The notes below the pieces were generated by a model. The model saw only the letters and a program-made list of their open reading frames with translations, was not told the DNA's origin and searched no databases. Both the position numbers and the translations under genes were made by a program. DNA of 50,833 nucleotides from IMG/VR virus record IMGVR_UViG_3300024264_000051, positions 1-50,833 of that record; one strand, given 5' to 3'. How positions within the stretch are numbered: position 1 is the stretch's first letter; each line of letters opens with the position of its first letter. The DNA comes from a virus. Shown here piece by piece: positions 34,316-48,260 of this stretch.

Positions 34316-34703
34316 TGTTGTCCTTCTCTATTTGCGAATTGCGAATGGACTCAATCTCTTCATCACGTTCCTTCCATTCCTTAAACTTTTCATGAAGGTC
34401 TTCATCCATAGTCAGTTCATACTCTTTACAGACCTTACGTTGCTCTTCTTCACGGACAAACTCATTAAACACCAGTGACATAGCACCAGAGCGAATAGCT
34501 GCGGGGGTTATACCTACACACAGCATGAACTTCTCAAAGAGTTTGAAATACTGTTTGGCATTAAGATCTTGTGCAGGTGCTGTGATCAGGAAATGCTCTT
34601 CAGGGAGAATGTCATCAGCACCAAGGTGAGATGCAAACCCACGAGTATAATCATGAGTGTAGGTAGCATCAAATTTGAATGTCAGTTCAGCGTTGTAAGT
34701 CAT
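34308..34703 (-). CDS. Hypothetical protein of T4-like cyanophage type
   Basis: 131 aa: TYNAELTFKFDATYTHDYTRGFASHLGADDILPEEHFLITAPAQDL, a helical middle (QYFKLFEKFMLCVGITPAAIRSGAM) and a very acidic/Lys-rich tail. Proteins with this start occur in T4-like marine cyanophages as I remember them; this is memory, not a search. Base composition of 34.0-34.9 kb is more AT-rich than the structural genes, which fits transfer. Function unknown. Confidence 0.6.
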   Translation of the reverse strand: MTYNAELTFKFDATYTHDYTRGFASHLGADDILPEEHFLITAPAQDLNAKQYFKLFEKFMLCVGITPAAIRSGAMSLVFNEFVREEEQRKVCKEYELTMDEDLHEKFKEWKERDEEIESIRNSQIEKDNND

Positions 34704-34867
34704 GAGTTGTTCTCCTGTGGGCGCATTGCTTGATTGAAATCAGCAGCACACCCAACTGGGAAGGGGCCTGGATCACCTGCTCGCCCACATGAGCTTGCGC
34801 GGATTCTCGATAAACGCATGTTATCAGGATTCTCGATGATCTCGTCAGTCAGTGGGTGTTCAGTCAT
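34700..34867 (-). CDS. Small hypothetical protein (MTEHPLTDE type)
   Basis: 55 aa: begins MTEHPLTDEIIENPDNMRLS, a start known to me from small cyanophage proteins, and ends FNQAMRPQENNS, matching the end of the peptide at 34111-34182. The middle (RASSCGRAGDPGPFPVGC) is low in structure. Probably a shortened or fused member of that small-protein family. Coupled to both neighbours. Confidence 0.5.
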   Translation of the reverse strand: MTEHPLTDEIIENPDNMRLSRIRASSCGRAGDPGPFPVGCAADFNQAMRPQENNS

Positions 34868-46054: not shown

Positions 46055-46222
46055 ATGACAGGATTCAAATCAAAAGTTGCTGCAGCAGCGCATGAGCAGT
46101 ACATGCGGAGTGTTTACCTCGATGTTTTGTATGAGCTAGACAAGCGCGACGACCCTGACCATGAGTTCAGGGGTTGCTACACGGGTTTATGGGAAATGTA
46201 CGGAGAGAAGCATGAGCGTTGA
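46055..46222 (+). CDS. Small hypothetical protein
   Basis: 55 aa: MTGFKSKVAAAAHEQYMRSV, YLDVLYELDKRDDPDHEFRG, then CYTGLWEMYGEKHER. It overlaps the next gene by 11 bp. A mostly helical small phage peptide of unknown role. Confidence 0.5.
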   Translation: MTGFKSKVAAAAHEQYMRSVYLDVLYELDKRDDPDHEFRGCYTGLWEMYGEKHER

Positions 46223-46430
46223 GATCGCCAACACCTCTGATGGTCTCGGCTTGAACGTTCGTGTTTGTGAGGATGGAATTTGCAAAACCGGGTTCACGTC
46301 ATCGATCCACCTCGTCGAAAAGAAAGCCAACGAACTTAGGGCTGCTATCCGAAAGCAAGCGGCTGAGGCATTCAAAGAGATCAGCCAACTCGAAGCTGAT
46401 GTGATGACCCACGACGATCTGCTCACATGA
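46212..46430 (+). CDS. Small protein with QLEAD helix, before the methyltransferase
   Basis: 72 aa from the ATG at 46212; the longer upstream frame is shadow. Beta start (VEIANTSDGLGLNVRVCEDG) then a helix ending RKQAAEAFKEISQLEADVM. That helix matches HYKQAADTFAEIQQLEADAM, the peptide placed right after the methyltransferase. Its stop overlaps the methyltransferase start (ATGA). Confidence 0.55.
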   Translation: MSVEIANTSDGLGLNVRVCEDGICKTGFTSSIHLVEKKANELRAAIRKQAAEAFKEISQLEADVMTHDDLLT

Positions 46431-47947
46431 TCGATCTAAAGCTTGGCGATTGCCTAGAGGTTCTCGCCACGATGGAAGATAACAGTGTTGACAGCATCGT
46501 TACTGATCCGCCTTACGGAATTGCCTTCATGCAATCCAAGTGGGACTACGGCGTGCCGAGCGTTGACATCTGGAAGCAATGCCTACGGGTGTTGAAGCCT
46601 GGTGGTCACCTGCTTGCCTTTGCTGGCACTCGCACGCAACACCGCATGGCAGTGAACATCGAAGACGCAGGCTTCGAGATCAGGGACATGATCGCTTGGC
46701 TATATGGAAGCGGATTTCCGAAATCTCACAACATCAACAAGGCGCTCGGCGATTCCGTATGCCTATGTAGGGGTAGTGCGCTACCATACACCCATGAAAA
46801 AGAAGTATCCCGAGAACCGCAGACCGAACGTGCAGTGTGTGCTGTGCGAAACGCCGATGTATCGCAAGCCATGGATTCTGGCGAAAGGCGAGGGCAAATA
46901 CTGCAGCAGAGCTTGCAGGAACAAAGCTCATCCGCCTTCAACAAAGCCGCCAGTGATGAAGGGCTCAGCCAATCCAGCTTGGAAAGGCGGAGTGACTCAG
47001 TTCAAGAAAAAGGGCAACTACACGGGCGTGATTTACGTCAGGGCACCCGAGTGGGCGAAGCCGATGGCGCGAAAGGACGGCTATGTGATGCAACACCGTC
47101 TAGTGATGGCGGAGATGTGCGGCTACCTGTTGACCAGAACGGAAGTGGTCAATCACAAGGACCACAATCCCAGCAACAACGATCCATCGAACTTGGAGCT
47201 TTACCCAACGAACGGGGATCACAAGCGGGGAGAGGTCGGCAGATTTGTGGAAAGTGTGGCAAACCGATGGTGCCCGAAGGTTTAGGCACTGCGCTCAAGC
47301 CTGCCCTAGAGCCGATTACCGTTGCTCGTAAGCCATTCAAGGGCACCGTTGCCAATAACGTGCTAGAGCACGGCACAGGCGCCATCAATATCGACGGTTG
47401 CAGGGTGGGGACAGATGAAAGCCTTGGCAGACCGTATGGAGGTGGAAATGCTATTTACGGCAAATACAACATGGAAAAAGGCACGAGAACTGGCGACGGA
47501 CTGACTGGTCGATGGCCGGCTAATTTGATCCACGACGGCAGCGATGAAGTCACTGAGCTGTTTCCGCAAGCAGTTAGCGGAGGTGCAATTACCGGCGAAG
47601 AACCAAGCAGTAAAACAAAAGGAATATTGGGTGAATTTTCAGGTCGAGCACCTTTCGTTACTTACAACGACTCTGGCAGCGCTGCTCGCTTTTTCTATTG
47701 CCCGAAATGCTCCAAGAAAGATCGAGACGATGGCAACACCCATCCCACTGTCAAACCCACTGACCTGATGGCTTATCTCTGCCGCTTGGTCACACCACCA
47801 GAAGGCGTTGTGCTTGATCCGTTTATGGGTTCAGGCAGCACAGGCAAAGCCGCCGCCCGTGAGGGGTTTAGCTTTATCGGTATTGAGCGTGAGGATGAGT
47901 ATCACGCAATCGCAATGGATCGCATTATGAAGGAGATGACAGCATGA
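46427..47947 (+). CDS. DNA methyltransferase ORF interrupted by a nested HNH gene
   Basis: 506 codons. Permuted N6-adenine/N4-cytosine type: motif IV TDPPYG at residues 26-31, LKPGGHLLAFAGTRT, then the C-terminal THPTVKP, LDPFMGSGSTG motif I near 461-475. The middle, about residues 105-285, is Gln/Ser/Arg-rich shadow over an HNH gene in the other frame; conserved sequence resumes at GTALKPALEPITVARKP. The frame stays open through the insert, so either a long linker is translated or the enzyme is split. If active it would modify phage DNA against restriction or control replication. Confidence 0.75.
   Translation: MIDLKLGDCLEVLATMEDNSVDSIVTDPPYGIAFMQSKWDYGVPSVDIWKQCLRVLKPGGHLLAFAGTRTQHRMAVNIEDAGFEIRDMIAWLYGSGFPKSHNINKALGDSVCLCRGSALPYTHEKEVSREPQTERAVCAVRNADVSQAMDSGERRGQILQQSLQEQSSSAFNKAASDEGLSQSSLERRSDSVQEKGQLHGRDLRQGTRVGEADGAKGRLCDATPSSDGGDVRLPVDQNGSGQSQGPQSQQQRSIELGALPNERGSQAGRGRQICGKCGKPMVPEGLGTALKPALEPITVARKPFKGTVANNVLEHGTGAINIDGCRVGTDESLGRPYGGGNAIYGKYNMEKGTRTGDGLTGRWPANLIHDGSDEVTELFPQAVSGGAITGEEPSSKTKGILGEFSGRAPFVTYNDSGSAARFFYCPKCSKKDRDDGNTHPTVKPTDLMAYLCRLVTPPEGVVLDPFMGSGSTGKAAAREGFSFIGIEREDEYHAIAMDRIMKEMTA
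46794..47285 (+). CDS. HNH homing-type endonuclease nested in the methyltransferase gene
   Basis: 163 aa in the +1 frame relative to the methyltransferase. A zinc module, CVLC...CSRAC (residues about 14-42), precedes the HNH_3-type core VNHKDHNPSNNDPSNLEL (about 116-133) and a basic GDHKRGEVGRF end. MKGSANPAWKGGV is the linker typical of phage HNH proteins. It has no intron-like flanking RNA: it begins about 60 bp after, and ends 3 bp before, recognisable methyltransferase sequence. Likely a selfish insertion in a conserved gene. The ATG lacks an obvious Shine-Dalgarno. Confidence 0.75.
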   Translation: MKKKYPENRRPNVQCVLCETPMYRKPWILAKGEGKYCSRACRNKAHPPSTKPPVMKGSANPAWKGGVTQFKKKGNYTGVIYVRAPEWAKPMARKDGYVMQHRLVMAEMCGYLLTRTEVVNHKDHNPSNNDPSNLELYPTNGDHKRGEVGRFVESVANRWCPKV

Positions 47948-48036
47948 CAGCTGATCATTACAAGCAGGCGGCTGACACATTTGCCGAGATACAACAGCTG
48001 GAGGCTGATGCGATGGGCGTGCCCAGACCGCGATGA
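47944..48036 (+). CDS. Tiny peptide with QLEAD helix, after the methyltransferase
   Basis: 30 aa: MTADHYKQAADTFAEIQQLE, ADAMGVPRPR. It overlaps the methyltransferase stop and the next start (ATGA each). The helix repeats that of the 72 aa protein on the other side of the methyltransferase, suggesting a duplicated small module. Confidence 0.4.
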   Translation: MTADHYKQAADTFAEIQQLEADAMGVPRPR

Positions 48037-48260
48037 GCGTACAGACCGAGCAGCAGCGTCTCGAAATGCCTGCTCATCCTCTGCCTGCCTTAGAGCGCAA
48101 CCAAGACGTGAAGATTTACATGAGCGCAGGCTGGGCTAAAGGCAAGGTCATTCGTTCGGATTTGGACAGCTGCACCGTTTGGCTGCCTCAACTCCAAAAA
48201 ACCGTCCGTGTCAGCGATGCTCGCAACATCCTCCTTCTTTCGTCGATGCAGGATTGCTAG
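48033..48260 (+). CDS. Hypothetical SH3-like protein
   Basis: 75 aa: LERNQDVKIYMSAGWAKGKVIRSDLDSCTVWLPQLQKTVRVSD. The sequence of short strands with a central GWAKGKV turn resembles small SH3-like or DUF-type barrels. Coupled to the previous peptide by overlap. Function unknown. Confidence 0.55.
   Translation: MSVQTEQQRLEMPAHPLPALERNQDVKIYMSAGWAKGKVIRSDLDSCTVWLPQLQKTVRVSDARNILLLSSMQDC

Follow-up and report, generated by a model that had tools for sequence, protein, structure and literature searches.

The locus

The window, i.e., the whole stretch of 50,833 nucleotides that was analysed, carries a tailed-phage gene set (terminase, portal, major head/protease, primase, NAD ligase, dNMP kinase, RusA). 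In addition, a DNA methyltransferase (MTase) gene is present, within which an HNH endonuclease gene is nested out of frame. The following features are referred to below:

46427..47947, + strand: host gene, beta-class N6/N4 DNA methyltransferase, 506 aa (ORF, Pfam, AF2 model)
46733..47278, + strand: insert, 182 residues in the MTase frame, replacing the variable linker between FPKSHN and GLGTALKP (alignment to intact MTases, linkers of empty MTases, pLDDT)
46760..46768, + strand: 5' end of the insert, with CxC in the MTase frame (residues C112 and C114), which would form the first half of a clamp
46776..46796, + strand: GTGCGCTACCATACACCCATG, a stretch conserved in nucleotides at the HNH start; host frame ALPYTH, HNH frame VRYHTPM (nucleotide comparison)
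46794..47285, + strand: HNH_3 endonuclease, nested in the +1 frame of the MTase; 163 aa with the ATG as start, 169 aa with the in-frame GTG at 46776 (ORF, Pfam)
47246..47257, + strand: 3' end of the insert, with CxxC in the MTase frame (residues C274 and C277), which shares its DNA with the HNH tail GRFVESVANR and would form the second half of the clamp

The coordinates of both genes and the +1 frame of the HNH had been given correctly in a preliminary description of this DNA. All 506 codons of the MTase ORF, including those of the insert, are free of stops. DPPYG is located close to the N-terminal end and FMGSGS close to the C-terminal end, the catalytic motifs being intact in both halves, and PF01555 matched the protein in two pieces with 110 bits (cut-off 26.7; E 2e-31). 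With DPPY preceding FxGxG and a profile score above the cut-off, the protein has the characters of a beta-class N6/N4 MTase. In the AF2 model both halves together matched CcrM (6pbd, E 1e-8) and other beta-class enzymes, and residues 117–269 had pLDDT values of < 50, i.e., the insert was mostly predicted to be disordered; the model is weak (mean pLDDT 57, 21 sequences) and contains no direct zinc geometry.

The HNH frame is open from 46704 to 47285. PF13392 (HNH_3) matched the nested protein with 34 bits (curated cut-off 24.8; E 2.3e-8), and the layout consists of an N-terminal zinc finger and a C-terminal HNH core. The fold showed a weak match to the HNH homing endonuclease I-HmuI; a sequence search against the PDB gave no match. 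A programmed frameshift, yielding an MTase-HNH fusion, was considered and appears unlikely: in several relatives (L018, L136) the open HNH frame starts directly in front of the start codon.

At positions 46776–46796, the sequence GCGCTACCATACNNCCATG at the HNH start is common to the diverged clamp-type elements L015, L121, L129 and L172, and in part to L118, L142, L148 and L159; it is preceded by a G-rich run. This stretch is possibly an initiation or recognition signal. No clear Shine-Dalgarno sequence or ribosome-binding site was found at the HNH start.

Boundaries of the insert

Alignment to intact MTases, as had been suggested, mapped the insertion to residues 103–284: the variable interval begins at residue 103 (after FPKSHN, nt 46733) and ends with residue 284 (nt 47278), followed by G285 of GLGTALKP. 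The stop codon TAG of the HNH (47283–47285) lies within the MTase codons L286-G287. The insert is almost wholly HNH coding sequence. Flanks of about 60 bp before and 3 bp after the HNH gene had been assumed; this has to be corrected, since the insert is without unrelated flanking sequence and spans the region from FPKS to GTALKP, which is a variable linker in empty MTases.

Applejack and Bircsak represent an occupied and an empty site, respectively. Their DNA is about 97% identical up to FPKS and 89% identical from GTALKP onward, with homology breaking exactly at FPKS and GTALKP; the former contains an element, the latter an ordinary linker with an in-frame segment which, by eye, resembles a helix-turn-helix. 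A recurrent in-frame insertion of this type (HTH also by eye) was present in the same linker of the uninterrupted MTases L040, L043, L046, L056, L079, L085 and L004, and some intact MTases (L034, L081) possess almost no linker between FPKS and GTALKP. The region thus tolerates almost anything in frame, HTH-like segments included.

Since phage group I introns commonly carry HNH homing endonucleases, a self-splicing group I or II intron with an HNH ORF, across which the exon frame reads through by accident, was taken into account. Searches with Rfam detected no RNA core of such an intron in this region of the window, even at E 5, and none in L015, L018, L020, L112 and L008 or in the controls. 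The predominance of HNH coding sequence in the insert also speaks against it, and an intron would need no open host frame, whereas that frame is open in every nested homologue (see below). An intron is therefore extremely unlikely.

Homologues and their carriers

When viral contigs were scanned with only the HNH protein, 12 loci emerged; in 12/12 the HNH occupied the +1 frame of an MTase of this family, and the host frame was open. For a wider scan, a profile of six HNHs was used against viral and bacterial genome contigs, and 74 distinct homologues were obtained, many on contigs which are fragments; as loci were found via HNH motifs, one HNH family was sampled well and others poorly. Nested homologues numbered 69, two were located between the halves of a split MTase (L160 and L161, with an HNH of the window's family between two ORFs), and three were freestanding. 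The relative frame and the MTase family were the same in 69/69 nested homologues, and none had a stop in the host frame. HNH identity exceeded 85% in only three pairs; the homologues are thus not copies of one sequence. Besides an Escherichia phage, the carriers of nested copies include contigs assigned to Bacteroidota, Myxococcota, Kiritimatiellota, Acidobacteriota and others. In many pairs the element was more alike than the host gene. A second HNH type, that of Escherichia phage BUCT618 (L008), uses the other frame for nesting, and there too the host frame was open in 11/11 distinct loci.

The splitting of the MTase gene in two by related HNHs is new as far as the literature searched shows. 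In L083 (2992–4907) the C-terminal half of a related MTase consists of two ORFs, split by a different HNH.

The same middle segment without HNH similarity had been named as evidence that would speak against a nested gene; it was found only in L104 (2646–3791), a mini-element comparable to a mini-intein. Most of its HNH, which is of a different type, was deleted in frame, while CDC...CSWC and the MTase frame were kept. As a deletion derivative, L104 supports a functional host frame.

Maintenance of the host frame

HNH genes were recoded synonymously 2000 times, using the codon usage of the host gene or their own, and stops in the MTase frame were counted. For the window, where no such stop exists, a mean of 10.7 was expected with host usage (P(0) < 0.0005) and of 7.1 with own usage (P(0) 0.001). 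In the 79 nested elements tested, the expected means were 8.3 (host usage) and 6.1 (own usage) and the observed number was 0 in all, the probabilities of single elements not being multipliable as if independent, because the elements are related by descent. The third, unused frame contained 9.2 stops (7.3 expected).

Split and freestanding copies served as controls. Their host-frame stops, observed versus expected, were 23/22.6 in L139, 17/17.8 in L160, 29/23.2 in L161 and 2/2.9 in L192; L187, with 65% GC, had 1 (4.5 expected). The AT-rich copies L139, L160 and L161 (17–29 stops) belong to the same tree as the nested copies, and nested sisters of the control copies at about 40% GC had 0 stops versus 9–11 expected. 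These neutral counts indicate that the open host frame is a property of nesting and not of the HNH sequence. A frame open by chance can be ruled out from synonymous recoding and the controls; the open frame reported in the preliminary description is thus real and beyond chance.

In the insert core, 73% of HNH residues were conserved versus 43% of host-frame residues at comparable distance (70–85% HNH identity). The host frame of the core, judged from these sequences, seems to be kept stop-free and to drift otherwise.

Two readings had originally been left side by side. According to one, the HNH inactivated the MTase, and its open frame is a passing accident. A disordered insert of 180 residues could indeed impair function, and splitting of the gene into two ORFs by related HNHs does occur (L160, L161; with another HNH, L083). 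However, the recoding test gave P of about 0.001 for the window alone, the 69 diverged nested homologues are all without host-frame stops, unlike the freestanding and split copies, the catalytic motifs are intact in both halves, and cysteines of the host frame are conserved (see below). A broken MTase is consequently a decidedly unlikely explanation. The other reading, a homing gene which invaded without an intron while the host frame was kept open, is supported, since dozens of diverged nested homologues are stop-free and the freestanding and split ones are not.

Cysteine motifs at the ends of the insert

A CxC near the 5' end together with a CxxC before the GTALKP region was found in 35 of 51 non-intein elements (classified by eye), the window among them; the 3' motif was mostly CxxCGKP or CxxCGLP. 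Across the elements, the 3' CxxC overlaps the HNH tail GR(F/I)(V/A)xG(A/V)ANR. When elements with an HNH tail like GRxVxxxANR were chosen blind to cysteine, both host codons specified Cys in 27 of 29, the two exceptions being an intein-type element and a spurious match further down. HNH V is paired with TGT and HNH A with TGC; the exchange of these HNH residues is therefore silent in the MTase Cys. The DNA pattern CxxCG.P..P.G.GTALKP, which holds no HNH information, retrieved 18 viral loci, and 18/18 had a nested +1 HNH. This conservation of the CxC/CxxC ends at the codon level, against the HNH frame, appears to be new as far as the literature searched shows.

That the motifs are a native feature of the MTase was considered and rejected: uninterrupted MTases have other linkers, L011 has the same CxC/CxxC motifs at another MTase site, and all loci with the 3' pattern contain a nested HNH. 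CxC...CxxC is also common to the unrelated HNH type of Molly, StellaBean, Applejack and Briton15. From the conservation of the cysteines, the motifs probably form a zinc clamp which closes the disordered loop. About one in three non-intein inserts, most of them from a low-GC HNH clade, lacks one or both motifs; a clamp would thus not be essential.

Endonuclease genes hidden in inteins

An intein at YG^C...TGN^SGFPKS contains the HNH out of frame in 18 homologues; this site neighbours that of the window and is the same as the intein site of actinophage FreddyB. The assignment as inteins is based on alignment and a PDB profile search, in which the host-frame profile of the HNH-carrying inteins matched the AceL NrdHF intein 6zgq (E 1.6e-6); Pfam and NCBIfam intein models gave no match to these hosts. 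Blocks A, B, F and G and homology to inteins were recognized in L020, L021, L141, L154, L165, L188 and others. No report of an out-of-frame endonuclease in an intein was found in the literature searched, which does not prove its absence elsewhere; within that scope, the occurrence of this HNH family out of frame in 18 inteins is new.

The occurrence in true inteins might suggest that the insert of the window, read in the MTase frame, is itself an unrecognized protein-splicing element. In contrast to L020 and L188, it has neither the first Cys/Ser, the block B His and the C-terminal Asn followed by S/T/C nor the other intein blocks; its 3' junction, PEG-LGTALKP, lacks N^S/T/C, and the core of the insert shows no conservation when read in the host frame. 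Protein splicing in the window is hence very unlikely.

Carriers of the three types (intein, clamp, split) are interleaved in the HNH tree, which requires 10 carrier changes; for inteins, at least two are implied by well-supported branches. The HNH module has thus changed carriers.

Comparison with known systems

One known case of genes in pieces is mobE in nrdA of Aeromonas phage Aeh1, an intron-less homing endonuclease in a host coding sequence. The window resembles it in having an intron-less homing endonuclease within a gene whose product may remain functional, but the host gene consists of two ORFs in Aeh1 and of one ORF in the window. L160 and L161 show the split form as in Aeh1, with the HNH family of the window.

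The maintenance of two frames had been regarded as unusual, which is partly superseded by the publication in 2025 of the same arrangement. The ShiLan domain is an out-of-frame HNH in a mycobacteriophage DNA methylase with a stop-free host frame and is neither intron nor intein (Arsenault, Gosselin, Gogarten 2025, PMC11855218; Gosselin et al. 2023, PMC9957025). It shares with the window element the methylase family, the alternate-frame HNH, the stop-free host frame, the lack of a detectable intron or intein, and a patchy distribution suggesting homing. The differences concern the site (FPKSHN...GLGTALKP in the window; ALKPxxEPxVVARKP in ShiLan and in the ShiLan-type L006 and L007), the HNH frame (+1 versus +2, the third frame), the start (ATG at 46794 or GTG at 46776 versus GTG 18 bp in), the end (TAG versus TAA(C)) and the HNH itself, with only about 32–34% identity over the core. 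In addition, window-type elements have CxC/CxxC ends and hosts far beyond Mycobacterium. With its different site, frame, start and HNH, the window element does not strictly qualify as a ShiLan domain. In the MTase of Mantra (L006, 970–3294), a LAGLIDADG-like segment is present in frame together with a ShiLan-type HNH out of frame.

A published proposal explains HNH translation by leaderless initiation in Mycobacterium. Such an explanation cannot be general, because nested copies are present in an Escherichia phage and in contigs assigned to Bacteroidota, Myxococcota and other groups.

The out-of-frame HNH of Applejack has also been published (PMC12613952). The elements of Applejack, Molly, StellaBean and Briton15 have the site, the +1 frame and the CxC...CxxC in the MTase frame in common with the window, but their HNH is of an unrelated subtype (HVHHLIPFRFGG... 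type). The actinophage methylase intein (Dorothy_75 type; FreddyB, L009) has the exact site and the C-terminal block of the inteins with hidden HNH. It carries its own in-frame endonuclease region (PMC9957025), whereas in the hidden-HNH inteins the HNH occupies the same slot out of frame; the window itself has no intein. Nested out-of-frame HNHs as a kind are thus already published; the window type is far more widespread and a separate variety.

Interpretation

The element in the window is very probably an unspliced homing element without a splicing apparatus, with both frames translated. Its inner part would be a homing endonuclease of the HNH type that is read in the +1 frame from a separate start codon and presumably cuts uninterrupted MTase genes at or near the linker; repair would then copy the element in, replacing the linker. 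The CxC and CxxC at the loop ends probably bind one zinc ion and could so hold the two MTase halves together; it is proposed that the MTase stays usable, and presumably active, in this way.

A more far-reaching interpretation, about as likely as not, is a distinct class of mobile elements, namely a two-layer homing cassette: an outer split zinc knuckle would close the unspliced loop, and an inner out-of-frame endonuclease would be exchangeable between carriers. In inteins, protein splicing would take the place of the clamp, and beside split genes no carrier would be needed.

To spare the gene that they invade, homing endonucleases are generally considered dependent on an intron, an intein or an intergenic site. 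The window element instead preserves an open host frame through dual coding, and the ends of the loop probably form a zinc clamp. The family statistics, the freestanding, split and HNH-deleted controls and the HNHs within inteins turn a mycobacteriophage curiosity into a testable general strategy for invading coding sequences. The element also ranks among the cleaner natural examples of gene overlap in which selection can be measured in both frames.

Minor observations

The small ORFs flanking the MTase (46161–46430 and 47945–48037) end and begin, respectively, with the similar peptides KQAAEAFKEISQLEADVM and KQAADTFAEIQQLEADAM, which looks as if the MTase gene had entered a duplicated gene or a position next to one; the two stretches are not linked by any DNA repeat of ≥ 18 nt.

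A comparison with phage records revealed no close DNA relative for the MTase-bearing half of the window, except for a patch of 0.3 kb (280–350 nt, at about 34352–34709) with 82–86% identity to the Synechococcus myophages S-RIM50, S-PM2 and S-M1. This similarity could be a hint of a cyanobacterial host or of a recent exchange.
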